Positions 48,713 to 55,085 of a stretch of DNA of 64,000 nucleotides are shown here, piece after piece; position 1 is the first letter of the stretch, and each line of letters opens with the position of its first letter. Under the pieces are notes generated by a model. That model was not told where the DNA came from, searched no databases, and was given only the letters and a program-made list of their open reading frames with translations. This DNA is from Desulforhabdus amnigena. Its GTDB lineage: Bacteria > Desulfobacterota > Syntrophobacteria > Syntrophobacterales > Syntrophobacteraceae. The position numbers and the translations under genes were made by a program. Location: positions 3,738,501-3,802,500 of the forward strand of contig NZ_BSDR01000001.1 of the NCBI RefSeq assembly GCF_027925305.1. Direction: 5' to 3'.

Positions 48713-49087
48713 ATGTTTGGTTTGCATCCTGCCGGAAAATTTATCTTCGGACTTTTGTTTATCATACTTCTCCCCGTTTTCCTTTGCCATTGCGCGCAGC
48801 AGTGGAACAGAACCGCACCAATGGATGCACAAGTTCCGGTAAAGTTTCAATATTTTGATCCCACCGCAAAAGAGGTGTGTGTTGCGGGCAGCTTCAATCA
48901 GTGGTCTCAACGGTCGCACTGCATGAGTGAGAAGGAAGGATTGTGGTCTTTGAGCGTTCCCCTCACTCCTGGGAGATATCAATATGTTCTGGTGATCGAT
49001 GGCAAATCCTGGCGCCCAGACCCCGGAGCGATTCTCTCCGAGGACAACGGGTTTGATGGAAAAAATTCAGTACTGATCGTGGAATGA
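48713..49087 (+). CDS. Lipoprotein with CBM48/AMPK-type glycogen-binding-like domain
   Basis: A 124-aa protein: hydrophobic N-terminus ending in LCHC (lipobox-like), then a single early-set beta-sandwich with EVCVAGSFNQWSQ, LWSLSVPLTPGRYQYVLVIDG, RPDPG and DNGFDGKNSVLIV. These are the landmarks of the isoamylase-N/CBM48 domain that binds alpha-glucans in AMPK-beta and glycogen enzymes. It is homologous to the C-terminal domain of the anti-sigma-like protein at 49821. No catalytic domain and no glycogen enzymes nearby, so ligand unknown. Confidence 0.8.
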   Translation: MFGLHPAGKFIFGLLFIILLPVFLCHCAQQWNRTAPMDAQVPVKFQYFDPTAKEVCVAGSFNQWSQRSHCMSEKEGLWSLSVPLTPGRYQYVLVIDGKSWRPDPGAILSEDNGFDGKNSVLIVE

Positions 49088-49162
49088 TTGTGACTCCAGG
49101 CCGCTCACGTTTGTATAAATCGAAGAAAGGTGCTTCTCACATTCGAGGACTAGAGTGGTTTG

Positions 49163-49768
49163 ATGAATTCTTCAGACGATCAGGAAGCAATATCCGCTGT
49201 TTTGGCCGGTGATGCCAATGCTTATGCCGTCCTGGTGGAACGCTATCAAAAGCCGATTTTCAATCTCATGTACCGCATGACCGGTTCGCATGCGGATGCC
49301 TTGGATCTGGCTCAGGACACGTTCATCAAGGCTTATGAGCAGCTATACCGTTTTGAGGAAGGGAAGAAATTCTTTCCGTGGCTCTACACGATAGGGTTGA
49401 ACAGATCCAAGAATTTTCTGCGGCAGCGGAAGGTAAAGCAGACGTATTCCATTGAAGACTTTGATCCCGGCTCGGGTTTGGATCATCCATCGCAGCAAGA
49501 AGATAATCTGTGTGACAGTCTCGACTCCCGACTGGTCCAGGAAGCCGTCCAGCAGCTCCCCGTCGATTACCGGGAAGCTATCATCCTGCGCTATCAGGAG
49601 GATTTTTCAATGGAAGATATAGCTGAAGCTTTAGAGCTTTCGGTGAGCGGCGCTAAAATGAGAGTCCATCGCGGGATTGCAAAGCTCCGGGAAATGCTGA
49701 GCGATAAGCGCTGCGGAGAGAGAAATGAGTCCCAATCGGCTTTTTCTGAGAAGAGATCTATTGCATAA
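49163..49768 (+). CDS. ECF-type RNA polymerase sigma factor
   Basis: A 201-aa sigma-70-family factor with region 2 (YQKPIFNLMYRMTGSHADALDLAQDTFIKAYEQL, in pieces YQKPIFNLMYRMTG and DLAQDTFIKAYEQL) and region 4 (LPVDYREAIILRYQEDFSMEDIAEAL in part, ELSVSGAKMRVHRGIAKLRE). It lacks region 3, so it is ECF. Immediately followed by a membrane protein likely to be its anti-sigma factor. A TTG directly before the ATG is open. The upstream CBM48 lipoprotein gene ends 75 nt before it. Confidence 0.92.
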   Translation: MNSSDDQEAISAVLAGDANAYAVLVERYQKPIFNLMYRMTGSHADALDLAQDTFIKAYEQLYRFEEGKKFFPWLYTIGLNRSKNFLRQRKVKQTYSIEDFDPGSGLDHPSQQEDNLCDSLDSRLVQEAVQQLPVDYREAIILRYQEDFSMEDIAEALELSVSGAKMRVHRGIAKLREMLSDKRCGERNESQSAFSEKRSIA

Positions 49769-49820
49769 AAAATGTTCAGGGGCAAATTTTCCCGTCAGGG
49801 GAGATCATGAGAAAGAAGCC

Positions 49821-50402
49821 ATGGGTGACGAACAGATAAGAGATGATCTATTGCTCCGAATCGAGTGCGGTGTCCGTGAAATGCCGTCTTTGGATCCGCC
49901 GCCATCACTTCTGCCCTTTGTCATGAATGCCGTGCGCACAAAAAAGATGCCATGGTGGTACCGGTTTTATAGATGGGCCAGAGCGCCTCGGTCCATTACC
50001 TTTACTCCTCTCCGGATTGCGCCGATTGTCGGCGTATTGATGGGCGTTTTTGTCCTCTCGATATACACCCTTTTTGATGGAAACGGAGGACGGTCGACTC
50101 AAGTTCCACCGCTCGATGGAATCCCCGTAACCCTTTCCCTGACCCTGGCCGGTGCTCAACGTGTGCAGGTGGTGGGTTCTTTCAATGACTGGAACGCACA
50201 GGGTTATGAGATGCGTAAGGAAGAAGGCAAGGAGTTGTGGACACTGAGTATAAACCTTCCAAGAGGTCGATATGAATATGCTTTTAAGGTCGATGACGAC
50301 AAAATCGTTCCGGATCCTCGAGCCGGTTTTTACCAGGACGATGGTTTTGGGAATCGAAATGCGGTGTTGATAGTAGGAAACCACCATGAAGAGAACATTT
50401 AG
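49821..50402 (+). CDS. Putative membrane anti-sigma factor with periplasmic CBM48-like domain
   Basis: A 193-aa protein: cytoplasmic N-terminus of about 75 residues (GDEQIRDDLLLRIECGVREM and on), one transmembrane helix (IAPIVGVLMGVFVLSIYTLF), then a CBM48-like sandwich (QRVQVVGSFNDWNAQ, LWTLSINLPRGRYEYAFKVD, PDPR, DDGFGNRNAVLIV). Position and topology fit an anti-sigma factor that senses something through its outer domain. No zinc-binding HxxxCxxC is visible, so it is not a classic ZAS. The frame is open from ATG 49725, overlapping the sigma gene; I prefer 49821, which has GAGAAAG upstream. Confidence 0.72.
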   Translation: MGDEQIRDDLLLRIECGVREMPSLDPPPSLLPFVMNAVRTKKMPWWYRFYRWARAPRSITFTPLRIAPIVGVLMGVFVLSIYTLFDGNGGRSTQVPPLDGIPVTLSLTLAGAQRVQVVGSFNDWNAQGYEMRKEEGKELWTLSINLPRGRYEYAFKVDDDKIVPDPRAGFYQDDGFGNRNAVLIVGNHHEENI

Positions 50403-51423
50403 GAGATTGCTTTTTGCGTTGCCGGTGATCCTGGCTCTTCTCCCGGGGATATGCAATGTCTTTGCCGCTGATAACGCTCAAGGACTTGCAACGGCCGTGG
50501 CCGAAGCTCAGGATGCAGGCATTCCTCCGGCAACCCTGAACCGTTTGTTGACCATTGGTTATGAAAATCAGGTGGAATCCGAGGCGATGGCAAACCTTGT
50601 GAGCATCTTGACACAGGCAGGAAAGGAAGACCTTCCACTGCAGCCTCTTTTGAGCAAGATAGATGAAGGGATAGCCAAACGCATACCTGCAGATGTGGTT
50701 TCGCAAGTGGTTGCGAAAAAATTGAATGATTATAGGGAAATGGTGTCGCTGATCAATGAACACAACAAAAGGCGAGGGCAAAACCTGCTTGTTTCCCATG
50801 AAATGCTCATCCGACTGACAGAAACTCTTTACTGTGGGCTTTCACAAGAAGAACTCCGTACCATGTTGGATCAGTACCCGGGCGTTTCGTTATCTACCCT
50901 GACACAGGGCATGGAAATCTTTGCTTCCCTCAGGCAGATGGCGTTTGATGCAAAGCTTTCCAGGGAGATCGTTTCTGAGGGGCTGAAACAAAATTTCTTC
51001 ATTTCCAATGAACTGGATTTTATTCGGACCATCGACATCGCCAAAGCAAAAGGGGTTCCTGAAAAGGAAATTGCGGCCGCCGCCATAGCCGGTATGGAAA
51101 AGCATGGATCCTTGAGGGAATTTTCAACGCGGGTCGGAGTCACTGCCGAGGATTTTGGCCATCATGGTCCTCAGTTGGGCAAGGGTAGCTTTTCCGGATC
51201 AAGGGGTGGGGGGAAGGGTCCATCCGGTGGGACCGAGGGTGGGCCAGACGGAAAAGGTGGAAAAGGCGGGGACCACGGTGGAGGAACGGGCGGTGAATCT
51301 GGTCATGGTGATTCCGGCTGTGGCTCCGGTGGAGGAGGTGGTTCCGGCGGCTCTGGTGGCTGTGGGGGCGCTGGCGGAGGTGGTGGAGGTTCGGGAGGAG
51401 GCTCCGGTGGTGGACGCGGATGA
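50386..51423 (+). CDS. Secreted protein with Gly-rich C-terminus, unknown function
   Basis: A 345-aa protein overlapping the anti-sigma gene by 17 nt. The signal peptide (LLFALPVILALLPGICNVFA) is followed by a helical region of about 235 residues with no known motif, then from about residue 262 a low-complexity tail of Gly, Ser and a few Cys, Lys and His (for example GGTGGESGHGDSGCGSGGG). The tail resembles surface or adhesive Gly-rich repeats. As the last gene of the sigma cassette it may be its regulated output, but that is inferred from position. Confidence 0.7.
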   Translation: MKRTFRRLLFALPVILALLPGICNVFAADNAQGLATAVAEAQDAGIPPATLNRLLTIGYENQVESEAMANLVSILTQAGKEDLPLQPLLSKIDEGIAKRIPADVVSQVVAKKLNDYREMVSLINEHNKRRGQNLLVSHEMLIRLTETLYCGLSQEELRTMLDQYPGVSLSTLTQGMEIFASLRQMAFDAKLSREIVSEGLKQNFFISNELDFIRTIDIAKAKGVPEKEIAAAAIAGMEKHGSLREFSTRVGVTAEDFGHHGPQLGKGSFSGSRGGGKGPSGGTEGGPDGKGGKGGDHGGGTGGESGHGDSGCGSGGGGGSGGSGGCGGAGGGGGGSGGGSGGGRG

Positions 51424-51585
51424 TGTATGGTAGTCGTTTACTCTCGATTAGGTCGATTTTGGAAACCCGACGTCCACCGTCGGTAAAGGAATCTCAACCT
51501 GCAGATAGCGTATTTTCACGGTAACGAAAAAGCTGAATCCAGATATTCTGTAATATTCAGTGAGATTAATAGTGCCGACCGCCCA

Positions 51586-51612
51586 CGCCGAGTCCATGGA
51601 CTCGGCGTTTCT
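51586..51612 (+). terminator. Rho-independent terminator of the sigma cassette
   Basis: A perfect palindrome (CGCCGAGTCCATGGACTCGGCG), here given as its two arms CGCCGAGTCC and GGACTCGGCG, followed by TTTCTT, about 160 nt after the Gly-rich gene. The rest of 51424-51851 shows no gene. Confidence 0.75.
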
Positions 51613-51851: not shown

Positions 51852-52520
51852 ATGAGGCTTTGGCGTAAGGTTCAAATCTTTGCGGTTGTACTGCTTGCTG
51901 AGACATGCGTTTTCACTTTTACTCTACCTGCGAGCGAAATCAAAGACTCCAAGTCGGTTTCCCAGGAAGGGGCCGCAGCGGTTTCCTCCGGTGCAGCCGT
52001 TTCCAGGCCTGAGTTACGCCTTCCCGAGAGAATTTCTGCGTCCGATCTCAAGCGCCTCATCCTGGATCTGCCCGGCACCTTCGATCTGGTGGACATTCGC
52101 CCTCCGCAGCAGTTCGCGGATTACGCACTGCCGGGTTCCATCAATGTGGACATTGTGGAGCTCATGTCCAACCCGGTGTACCTCACGGGGGTGGGGCCCC
52201 TCATCATTGCGGATCGTGACGGTTCCCTTGCCATGGCGGTTGCCGGCATACTTTCCCAAAAAACCCAGCGGGTCATCAAGGCTCTGCATGGAGGAGTTGA
52301 AGCCTATTGGGCCGAATCGGAATTGAGAAACGCCGTGGGAGGGAGAGGCGCTCCGGGAGTGACAGGAGTACTTCCAGGAACGGGCCGCGCCGTTGAAACC
52401 CCTCAAACTCTGAAAGGGGGCGCTCCTTCGAGCGAGGGAGGAGCGATTAAACCCGCCGCACCCTCGCAGCCTGCGCCACCAGCGCCGCAAAGGCCGAAAT
52501 CCACAAGTGCGGGGTGCTGA
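51852..52520 (+). CDS. Exported rhodanese-like protein lacking the catalytic Cys
   Basis: A 222-aa protein with an N-terminal signal (VQIFAVVLLAETCVFTFTLPA), a rhodanese domain (about 60-160: FDLVDIRPPQQFADYALPGSINV, then IIADRDGSLAMAVAGIL, ALHGGVEAYWAE) and a Pro/Ala-rich tail ending in a C-terminal Cys. The loop that should read CxxGxxS reads DRDGSLA, so the sulfur-carrying Cys is Asp and ordinary sulfurtransferase activity is unlikely. AAGGAGG lies before the ATG. First gene of the YeeE-rhodanese set; it overlaps or touches the next start. Confidence 0.82.
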   Translation: MRLWRKVQIFAVVLLAETCVFTFTLPASEIKDSKSVSQEGAAAVSSGAAVSRPELRLPERISASDLKRLILDLPGTFDLVDIRPPQQFADYALPGSINVDIVELMSNPVYLTGVGPLIIADRDGSLAMAVAGILSQKTQRVIKALHGGVEAYWAESELRNAVGGRGAPGVTGVLPGTGRAVETPQTLKGGAPSSEGGAIKPAAPSQPAPPAPQRPKSTSAGC

Positions 52521-52528
52521 GGATGAAG

Positions 52529-53047
52529 ATGAAAAACAAGCAAATGCGAAAAGATTTTATGAATCCTTACCTGGCCGGGGTATTGCTTGGCTTTACGCTT
52601 CTGGCTTCTTTCATCGTTCTGGGGGCGGGGCTGGGAGCTTCGGGGGGCATCGCCCGGTTTGCTGCATCTCTCGAGGGGGCGCTGGCGGAGAGCCACACTC
52701 TTTCCAGTGAATACTTCGGGAGGTGGGGGAGTTCTCCCATGAGCTACTACCTGGTCTTCATGCTGCTGGGAACATTTTTGGGGGGGCTTTTTTCAGCAGT
52801 TCAGGCGGAGAGGCTTGCATTCAAACTGGAGAGGGGCAAGGCGTCCCCTCCTGGCTTGCGAGCCGGCCTTGCTCTTTGCGGAGGGATCATTGTCGGATTT
52901 GCCAGCCGGCTGGCCCAGGGCTGCACATCCGGCCAGGCACTCACGGGTGGGGCGATGCTCCTTACCGGAAGCCTCATTTTTCTCGTCTGCATTTTCGCGG
53001 GAGGCTACGCCGCCGCTTATTTTGTAAGGAGGCAGTGGGATGATTGA
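52529..53047 (+). CDS. YeeE/YedE-family sulfur transporter, half protein A
   Basis: A 172-aa membrane protein with four hydrophobic helices and the family motif GFASRLAQGCTSGQALTGGA, whose Cys is the sulfur-relay residue in thiosulfate-type YeeE (TsuA) transporters. It covers half of a full YeeE; the other half is the N-terminal part of the next gene, so the two probably assemble. ATG 52529 has TGAGG 6 nt upstream; GTG 52514 and ATG 52523 are open too. Its stop overlaps the next ATG by 8 nt. Confidence 0.87.
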   Translation: MKNKQMRKDFMNPYLAGVLLGFTLLASFIVLGAGLGASGGIARFAASLEGALAESHTLSSEYFGRWGSSPMSYYLVFMLLGTFLGGLFSAVQAERLAFKLERGKASPPGLRAGLALCGGIIVGFASRLAQGCTSGQALTGGAMLLTGSLIFLVCIFAGGYAAAYFVRRQWDD

Positions 53048-55085
53048 AACTTTCTTTGGGTCTGGAACCATTGGATCTCCCCAGGCTTTTGTTGCTGCTC
53101 TTGTTATCGGGCTGTTCTTTGGATTTGCCCTGGAGCGAGCAGGTTTCGGGAGTTCCAGGCGGCTTGCCGGAATATTTTATTTCAGGGACATGGCGGTTCT
53201 CAAAGTGATGTTCACGGCGCTCATCACGGCCATGCTGGGGTTGAGCTATCTTATCGCACTGGGCTGGATCGAGCCGAGTCAACTCTATTTCATGCCCACG
53301 GTTTATGGTGCCCAAGTCGTTGGGGGGCTTCTTTTCGGAGTCGGTTTCGTCATGAGCGGCTGGTGTCCCGGCACTGGAGCCGTGGGGCTGGCTTCCGGGA
53401 AACTGGACGCACTCCTGTTCCTCCTAGGGGCGGTTTTGGGGAGTGTTCTTTTCAATGAACTTTTTCCCCTGGTAAAATCGCTTTATTCCTGGGGGGAAAG
53501 CGGAGTTCGCTTCGTCTATAACGCTCTGGGAATGTCCCTTGCGGCCTTTGCTTTTCTCTTCACTCTAATGGCGGTAGGCTGTTTCTGGGGGGCTGAATAC
53601 ATCGAAAAGAAGAAATCCACCGGAGGCGCCTGCTTCAATACCCCTTTCCTCAAAGCCTTCAGCCTCGCCCTCCTGATCTTTGCAGGGGGGCTCTTCATCT
53701 TTCCCACTTCCCAGCTCGATCTGGCTTCGGAAGGAAGGCCTTCCCCTCGCTCAAGGGCAGCCGCAGTAGCGGAGATGGAAAAAGGCCTTCTTCAACTGGT
53801 GCAGGAAGCCGGGGATCATATGGAACCGGCAGAACTGGCCGACCGGCTCATGAACGGTGAACCGGGGCTGGTAGTAGTGGATATCAGAACGCCCGATGAA
53901 TATAACCGGTTTCACATTCGCGGTGCCGTCAACGTTCCTATCACGCAACTCGATGAATATCTTAGGTCCCTCCCCGATCGTGGGATTACGGTCCTCTATT
54001 CCAATGGCATGACTCACCCAGCCCAGGCCCGTGATGCTCTCTTCCGCATGGGCCACCAAAATCTTTATATCCTCACCGATGGATTGACGGGCTTCATGGA
54101 AACCTGCCTCAAACCTGCTTCTTTGCGAACGGAGCCTGTGCCGGAAGATTTCGCCCGGAAAATCCGTGCCTGGAGGAATTTCTTTTATGCTTCTGCCGCT
54201 CGGGAATCTACGGTCCCGGCGCAAGGGGGAGTGATTTCGCCTTTTGAGAGGACTCTTCCGTGGCTTGTGGAAACGGACTGGCTTTCTGGTCAACTCGGTC
54301 GGGAAGATTTGAAGATTCTTGATGTGCGGAGTCAGCCAGAATACAATTCGAGTCACATTCCGGGTGCGATTTATGTGTCGGTGGAGAGCTTTAGAGGGGT
54401 TGTGCGCGGGGTTCCCTCCATGCTCCTGCCGTCTGAAATGCTTGCGCTCCACCTGTCCCAGATGGGGATTCACCCCCAGGACAGGGTCATCATCGTACCG
54501 GGCGACAAAATTCAGGATGCCACTCTGGTGGGCATGGCTTTTCAACGTCTCGGTCACCAAAACTATGCAGTTTTGAACGGAGGCTTTGACAAATGGGCTT
54601 CGGAAAACCGGCCGGTAGATGCGGCGCTTCCGCCCATCGTGGAATCCCGGTATCCTGTCGGTAATGGAGTGGATGATTTCACAGTGGACTACCTGAAGGT
54701 CCATGATTTCGTAAAAAATGGGGGAGCGGTGATTCTGGATGTGAGGCCTGCAGATTACTATGCGGGTAAAAAGTCCGATGAAGCCAGAGCCGGCCACATC
54801 CCGGGAGCCATAAATCGCCCCTTTTCAGAAGATGTACTCAAGACGGACAAGTACTCACGCTTAAAATCCAGGGAGGAGCTGGCTACAGCGTATGCATCGC
54901 TGATTCCTTCCAGGGATTCCACGGTGATCGTCCATTGTCGTACGGGGCATCAGGCCAGTCAGACCTACTTCGTACTGAAGCATCTACTCGGGTATCCGAA
55001 CGTCTTATGGTATGACGCCGGCTGGACGGAATGGGCGGCACGTCCTGAATTGCCTGTCGATACCGGCGCGGGAGATGCGAAGTGA
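53040..55085 (+). CDS. YeeE/YedE half protein B fused to three rhodanese domains
   Basis: A 681-aa fusion. Residues 1-225 are the second YeeE half with helices and GVGFVMSGWCPGTGAVGLASG. Then come three exported-side rhodanese domains: R1 at about 260-360 (LVVVDIRTPDEYNRFHIRGA; active loop YSNGMTHPA, no Cys), R2 at about 405-530 (LKILDVRSQPEYNSSHIPGA; loop VPGDKIQDA, no Cys) and R3 at about 545-675 (VILDVRPADYYAG; loop HCRTGHQAS, catalytic Cys present). Only R3 can carry persulfide. GGAGGCAGTGGG precedes the ATG. It likely links uptake of reduced sulfur to a sulfur carrier. Confidence 0.88.
   Translation: MIETFFGSGTIGSPQAFVAALVIGLFFGFALERAGFGSSRRLAGIFYFRDMAVLKVMFTALITAMLGLSYLIALGWIEPSQLYFMPTVYGAQVVGGLLFGVGFVMSGWCPGTGAVGLASGKLDALLFLLGAVLGSVLFNELFPLVKSLYSWGESGVRFVYNALGMSLAAFAFLFTLMAVGCFWGAEYIEKKKSTGGACFNTPFLKAFSLALLIFAGGLFIFPTSQLDLASEGRPSPRSRAAAVAEMEKGLLQLVQEAGDHMEPAELADRLMNGEPGLVVVDIRTPDEYNRFHIRGAVNVPITQLDEYLRSLPDRGITVLYSNGMTHPAQARDALFRMGHQNLYILTDGLTGFMETCLKPASLRTEPVPEDFARKIRAWRNFFYASAARESTVPAQGGVISPFERTLPWLVETDWLSGQLGREDLKILDVRSQPEYNSSHIPGAIYVSVESFRGVVRGVPSMLLPSEMLALHLSQMGIHPQDRVIIVPGDKIQDATLVGMAFQRLGHQNYAVLNGGFDKWASENRPVDAALPPIVESRYPVGNGVDDFTVDYLKVHDFVKNGGAVILDVRPADYYAGKKSDEARAGHIPGAINRPFSEDVLKTDKYSRLKSREELATAYASLIPSRDSTVIVHCRTGHQASQTYFVLKHLLGYPNVLWYDAGWTEWAARPELPVDTGAGDAK

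Follow-up and report, generated by a model that had tools for sequence, protein, structure and literature searches.

An extracytoplasmic function (ECF) sigma factor paired with an anti-sigma factor is an already known kind of system, and systems of the SigW/RsiW and RpoE/RseA kind, with a membrane-bound class I anti-sigma factor, are the natural reference for the locus described here: a cassette of four genes, all on the + strand, at 48713-51423 of a 64,000-nucleotide (nt) stretch (the window) from the 4.54-Mb one-contig genome of Desulforhabdus amnigena. The cassette shares with these systems a SigW-like protein made of the sigma2 and sigma4 regions, an adjacent membrane protein with one helix, a promoter-like element before the sigma gene and, in cassette relatives, a zf-HC2 domain. 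It differs in the outer CBM48 or TPR domain and the homologous envelope companion, in its few promoter sites outside itself, in its exported low-complexity proteins and, in the window, in a short anti-sigma N-terminal part without the zinc motif. The biomass-sensing SigI/RsgI systems of clostridia likewise carry a carbohydrate-type outer module on the anti-sigma factor and on another exported protein; unlike them, the cassette has an ECF rather than a SigI-type sigma factor, no RsgI family among the Pfam and NCBIfam matches of the window anti-sigma factor, and an anti-sigma copy that has lost a ligand-site Trp. The cassette domain agrees with the CBM48/AMPK-beta glycogen-binding domain in family profile and fold but is carried by an anti-sigma factor on the outer side of the cell membrane, and in the window anti-sigma factor its second Trp position is Ile. 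Finally, in the SCO4117-type ECF52 sigma factor a periplasmic carbohydrate-binding domain is fused to the sigma factor itself (PMC8999054). In both systems an ECF sigma factor is coupled to a domain of carbohydrate-binding type beyond the membrane, the difference being that the cassette domain sits on a separate anti-sigma factor and on a companion, not on the sigma factor. No description of a CBM48 anti-sigma factor was found among the titles and abstract openings listed from the open-access literature, and the main ECF classification may list such a group.

Here, we propose, at about even chances of being right, that the cassette is a self-contained, autoregulated sigma/anti-sigma module of the ECF type, which governs exported low-complexity proteins and perhaps contains a feedback gauge based on a shared partner. 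The gene set, its order, the domains, the promoter element and the candidate targets are established at the level of sequence comparison, and the elements in the window are as follows.

48713..49087, + strand: exported companion protein with a CBM48/AMPK1_CBM domain, 124 amino acids (aa) (Pfam, alignment, Protein Data Bank (PDB) profile match to AMPK beta, residue count, lipobox check).
49090..49117, + strand: predicted autoregulatory promoter GTGAC-N17-TGTATA, 45 nt 5' of the sigma start (constant-spacing element in relatives, exact match in the window).
49163..49768, + strand: ECF sigma factor, 201 aa, SigW-like (Pfam and NCBIfam; PDB profile match to SigW, E 5.9e-40).
49821..50402, + strand: anti-sigma factor, 193 aa, with short cytoplasmic helices, one membrane helix and an outer CBM48 domain (alignment, model, Foldseek, zf-HC2 in relatives).
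50386..51423, + strand: exported protein with a signal peptide (by eye), an all-helical core to about 51173 and then a Gly/Ser-rich tail ending GGGRG (alignment, model).
51585..51608, + strand: terminator-like hairpin 3' of the cassette, 10 pairs with a weak T run (pattern scan).

The four genes and both CBM48-like domains had been picked out in a first-pass annotation of the window; all four genes lie where it placed them, and both domains pass the Pfam cut-offs (AMPK1_CBM, E 1.9e-10 and 1.5e-9). Its description of the companion as a lipoprotein is possible but doubtful, the Cys following L-C-H and the lipobox not being canonical; the export signals of the window proteins were judged by eye. 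The anti-sigma reading frame is open from 49725, and the ATG at 49821, which aligns with the starts in relatives, is the likely start. Its gene and that of the exported protein share 17 nt, and across the class 15 of 17 loci keep an overlap of 17 or 20 nt, counts that rest on the gene starts chosen. The hairpin is only suggestive, because the scan gave 6 such sites against a shuffle mean of 3.8 (standard deviation 1.8).

The four genes travel together. The anti-sigma query matches 11 of the 39 genomes of the order, and the full-length matches to the anti-sigma factor come from one and the same set of 9 genomes, among these 39, as those to the exported protein. At the level of the class, 22 of 55 genomes match the anti-sigma factor at E <= 1e-5, some of them through the CBM48 domain only. 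In a sample of 395 genomes of the phylum, a profile of the helical core matches at least 42 genomes, a lower bound because the first pass scored few candidates per genome, and a profile of the anti-sigma N-terminal part matches 19. We inspected all 42 neighbourhoods: sigma factor, CBM48 protein and core gene stand together, within about 1 kb, in 38. Among the four exceptions, L221 and L255 lie at contig ends, L223 has the CBM48 and core genes with no sigma gene found, and L252 is a weak, lone core match (E 1.5e-4). Co-occurrence thus bears out this much of the first-pass proposal, that the sigma and anti-sigma genes form a conserved unit together with the gene of an exported product, and the conservation, judged from these comparisons, is far beyond chance, because the two full-length proteins share the same nine genomes while the flanking genes are not kept: rplS, rnhB, yraN, rsmI, murI, the rhodanese gene and two YeeE-like genes, considered as possible members of the system, did not turn up in the stretches retrieved from relatives. 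A single-query scan of a genome collection with the anti-sigma factor returned no relatives; whole-genome searches did find them. The cassette appears to be small, self-regulating and common to many relatives of sulfate-reducing bacteria. Located 3' of it in the window, at 51852-55085, are genes for a rhodanese protein, a YeeE-like membrane protein and a large YeeE-like/rhodanese fusion (with a Pfam Rhodanese match for the first only), a set that looks like sulfur transport.

The sigma factor consists of the sigma2 and sigma4 regions only, as in ECF sigma factors, with matches, all above cut-off, to Sigma70_r2 (PF04542, E 2.2e-17), Sigma70_r4_2 (PF08281, E 3.9e-15) and TIGR02937. Structure prediction of the adjacent membrane protein, suggested in the first-pass annotation, gave a model with a mean predicted local distance difference test score (pLDDT) of 73 and a predicted template modelling score (pTM) of 0.43, in which the outer domain has the AMPK beta CBM fold (Foldseek root mean square deviation 1.4-1.9 in most of the top matches, which span about 85 columns). 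From the N-terminus, the protein comprises what is apparently the last part of a zf-HC2-type domain and a positively charged stretch, followed by the one membrane helix and the CBM48 domain; it shows neither a zf-HC2 match nor a zinc motif. Among the anti-sigma reading frames of cassette relatives, however, the zinc motif HxxxCxxC precedes CBM48 in 18 of 57. The N-terminal profile of the window type matches some of these zinc-motif relatives, and zf-HC2 is above cut-off in three of the four that were scanned (L213, L218 and L231; L251 gave no match), which argues from homology that the window N-terminal part is anti-sigma-like by descent. An Elusimicrobia record (L086) also joins a zinc-motif domain, with zf-HC2 under the cut-off, to CBM48. 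Weak matches to the N-terminal profile in L211, L212, L214, L215, L216, L219 and L220 are other anti-sigma factors or unclear, lack CBM48 and the core, and were set aside. Locus L210 (3070-4354) has a related sigma factor and the promoter element, with an anti-sigma-like partner that apparently has further membrane helices and no nameable outer domain.

Does the outer CBM48 domain sense a glucan? At E <= 0.001, AMPK1_CBM matches nothing in the genome besides the two cassette domains. Two Trp positions in the CBM48 of AMPK form its glucan ligand site; we counted the corresponding residues by alignment to AMPK beta-2. The first Trp is kept in all 57 anti-sigma CBM48 domains. At the second position, none of the 25 anti-sigma factors that have a CBM48 companion in their locus carries Trp, against 15 of the 32 that have none; the window residue is Ile, leaving one aromatic residue of the two. 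The window companion has Trp at both positions (FNQW and SWRPDP), and companions generally have an aromatic residue at the first (25/25) and the second (21/25). Because the window companion has both Trp residues and the anti-sigma factor one, any glycan binding would sit with the companion, not with the anti-sigma factor. It is quite unlikely, in our judgement, that the anti-sigma CBM48 binds an extracellular alpha-glucan, like the CBMs of clostridial RsgI, and so frees the sigma factor for an adhesin or matrix protein. The CBM48/AMPK-beta fold, the anti-sigma factors with both Trp residues in those 15 of 32 loci and the intact site of the window companion are consistent with such a sensor; the loss of the second Trp in 25 of 25 companion-bearing loci and the TPR outer domain of four loci are not, and no glucan enzyme was seen behind the promoter-like sites inspected, glucan genes elsewhere in the genomes not having been searched for. 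The carbohydrate-type control of the sigma factor that the first-pass annotation had read from the domain is not supported, in view of the same two observations. A lipobox-like motif occurs in 15 of the 25 CBM48 companions (including that of L037, where it precedes the likely start); the window companion, with L-C-H-C, is not among them. The CBM48-domain tree rejects neither a single origin of all companions (approximately unbiased test, p-AU 0.59) nor a joint clade of companions and anti-sigma factors of the family (p-AU 0.24).

Four loci (L082, L207, L209 and L217) pair a related sigma factor and a related anti-sigma N-terminus with a different outer part, a TPR domain whose end is weakly OmpA-like; here the gene 5' of the sigma gene encodes a lipoprotein with the same TPR domain, and the fourth gene an exported protein that combines a GWGQIAxELG-like motif with a Gly-rich tail. 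In L082, a 4.5-kb contig labelled Bacteroidales, a label that may be wrong, the TPR lipoprotein and the anti-sigma outer part are 44% identical over 266 aa. The OmpA-like end of the TPR lipoproteins is above cut-off in L085 and just under it in L082. Altogether, companion and anti-sigma factor carry the same type of domain in 29 of the 38 loci with a companion lipoprotein (25 CBM48, 4 TPR). There is no sign of recent copying within a locus: in a quick tree that includes two long rows, a single branch (SH-aLRT 95) parts the four TPR anti-sigma domains from the eleven domains of lipoproteins, and for three of the four a lipoprotein of another locus gives a higher score than their own.

A conserved -35/-10 pair stands before the sigma gene. 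Upstream of 49163, where the first-pass annotation had suggested looking for a sigma-dependent promoter, we find a shared promoter-like element: GTGAC-N17-[TC]GTA precedes the sigma gene at constant spacing in 10 of 10 loci of the window's family, and GTGAC-N17-YGTA is present in 21 of the 65 cassette loci, a set that includes the window (shuffle mean 0.2, maximum 2). With a spacing of 16-18 allowed, the element covers all four TPR-type loci. A second group of loci has GTAAC-N16-CGTT instead (16/65; shuffle mean 0.04, maximum 1). These counts are not probabilities, because the shuffles were mononucleotide and the loci are related; N stretches also cost data in L068 and L074.

Nine family genomes contain 108 GTGAC-N17-YGTAWW sites, and the reversed control has 56, so that most sites, taken singly, say little. 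Ten of the 108 are the sigma promoters, and nine more lie beside cassettes, where by our hand estimate chance would give about 0.2, from 108 sites per roughly 44 Mb and some 8 kb of flank for each of 10 cassettes. Of these nine, six precede exported-looking proteins; the site in L043 precedes a TPR lipoprotein and then a Gly-tailed protein, and those in L035 and L037 precede proteins with DGSC units. In the window genome the exact pattern has 9 sites against 6 in the control. One is the sigma promoter; of the remaining eight, seven lie inside open frames of at least 150 codons and one before what we read as a D-Ala carboxypeptidase-like gene, and we claim none of them. A homologue of the L035 repeat protein in the window genome, found by its sequence first (E 1.5e-7, 40% over 72 aa), is an exported protein in which RDKKRDGSCQ and RDKDRSCLQ units alternate (L336:1501-1911). 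GTGAC-N17-TGTA stands 58 nt 5' of the start of this distant "RDGSC" repeat protein, a site missed by the exact pattern because the last two bases differ, and it is the strongest evidence for a target elsewhere in the genome.

In the second group, 12 genomes hold 18 sites against 6 in the reversed control, 15 of them in or beside a cassette: 10 are sigma promoters, 3 stand directly 5' of the core gene and 2 precede a small exported protein ending RDGSCK. Of the other three, one precedes an exported DUF2202 protein (L332, G183:C4:169600-171700, with the site at 56; DUF2202 E 6.8e-32), one lies 322 nt 5' of the start of an exported repeat protein rich in RD, and one stands before a gene whose product shows no sign of export. 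This distribution suggests a narrow regulon in the second group and speaks for a module that regulates itself. A general envelope-stress response, in which the anti-sigma factor would sense a defect in cell wall, outer membrane, metal or redox state, the exported proteins would be protective and CBM48 would merely be a structural ectodomain, seems unlikely to us. The SigW-like sigma factor, the OmpA-like end of the TPR lipoproteins and the DUF2202 site would suit it, but the sites are few and in the second group nearly all in or beside the cassette, no envelope-stress genes are among the candidate targets seen, and the homologous companions are left unexplained. Glucan sensing and general envelope stress both fit less well than a self-regulating module.

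What, then, does the cassette export? The conserved part of the window protein is its first ~260 residues, predicted to be all-helical (alignment; model pLDDT 87, pTM 0.74). The Gly/Ser tail described in the first-pass annotation is present in the window and missing from many relatives. Foldseek gave no PDB match to the core at E <= 0.001; the best PDB profile match is a designed protein (E 0.0033) and the best VIA-align Z is 8.2, and we neither claim nor exclude a fold, because this Z lies within the chance range of helical repeats. Pfam CMD matches occur in 4 of 17 core members (best 5.3e-6), the window member not included. No family name was found for the helical core, the Gly-tailed GWGQIA family or the RDGSC repeat proteins. 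In L036 (9941-11791) an exported core protein of distinct architecture has a Gly-rich tail followed by two similar copies of another domain (by eye). The GWGQIA profile matches 16 genomes, of which 11 were inspected (G088, G089, G238, G241 and G306 were left out). Three of the 11 have cassette loci (G101, G140 and G380); no sigma or companion match is present in the fetched stretch of G104, G167, G067, G093, G340, G128 or G246, and that of G390 has a TPR lipoprotein only and no sigma factor. The family is therefore not confined to the cassette. Exported GWGQIA proteins with Gly/Lys/Asn tails, with no sigma gene in the fetched stretch, are found in L324, L325, L326 and L327, the L324 copy adjoining a TPR lipoprotein.

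In the 57 loci that encode an exported core or GWGQIA protein, companion lipoprotein and Gly tail occur together in 35, neither in 18, the companion only in 3 and the tail only in 1. Cut-offs decide a few rows (the shorter or poorer tails of L225, L226 and L242 were scored absent), and L042, whose exported gene has an internal stop, was counted as tail-less. We treat this association as a lead, not as proof. It bears on a role outside the cell, in which the secreted proteins would serve matrix, adhesion or cell aggregation, the cassette would answer contact or density and the companion would anchor the product at the surface. This is possible, though on balance somewhat unlikely: the tails and repeats are rich in Gly/Ser, Lys/His/Asp or RD, several with Cys, and tail and companion occur together, while tail-less core proteins are common and secretion machinery or surface data do not add to the case.

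How might a self-regulating module work? In the off state, by analogy with the family, the one-helix anti-sigma factor would hold the sigma factor at the inner membrane. Once released, by proteolysis or a conformational change as in other systems, the sigma factor would transcribe its own operon from GTGAC-N17-YGTA promoters, giving more sigma factor, anti-sigma factor and helical/Gly-tail protein, and, as the promoter-like sites suggest, would also raise small exported Cys-containing repeat proteins elsewhere. The anti-sigma outer domain and its homologous companion (CBM48 here, TPR in four cassettes) may have a binding partner in common, most probably the exported product or the place in the envelope where it is assembled or docks. 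The anti-sigma factor would then report the amount of free partner and act as a feedback gauge on product export or assembly. The more specific version, a self-monitoring export module in which the anti-sigma factor uses its outer domain, homologous to that of the envelope companion, to sense the protein that the cassette itself exports, or the docking site of that protein, and in which CBM48 and TPR are exchanged while the sigma factor, promoter and Gly-tailed product class are kept, is one that we put forward tentatively and would not yet bet on.

Several observations weigh against this proposal. Domain matching is not obligatory, because 9 of the 38 loci combine a CBM48 anti-sigma factor with a TPR lipoprotein: L043, L068-L073 and L085, which have a tail-less core protein and a Gly-tailed GWGQIA protein besides, and L206, which has no GWGQIA protein. 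The three TPR anti-sigma domains that score higher with the lipoproteins of other loci than with their own are those of L082, L207 and L209. The association of companion and tail amounts to about four changes on the sigma tree, where the companion state changes 4 times and the tail 6 times, with too few independent pairs (sign test p 0.5), and 18 of the 57 loci have neither. Three of the nine cassette-side sites (L036, L038 and L039) precede no convincing exported protein. Moreover, the companion need not be in the regulon, because in the window's family its gene lies 5' of the sigma promoter.

In conclusion, the cassette links the helical core, the Gly-tailed GWGQIA family and the RDGSC repeat proteins in a single predicted regulon marked by a defined promoter element, and its full set of sigma factor, CBM48 protein and core is present in 38 of the 395 sampled genomes of the phylum. 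Its variants also form a natural series, the anti-sigma factor exchanging its outer domain along with a partner protein, and the rule that the sensor resembles its partner is therefore directly testable. In anaerobes, the exported Gly/Ser-rich products may serve as materials of the envelope or surface.

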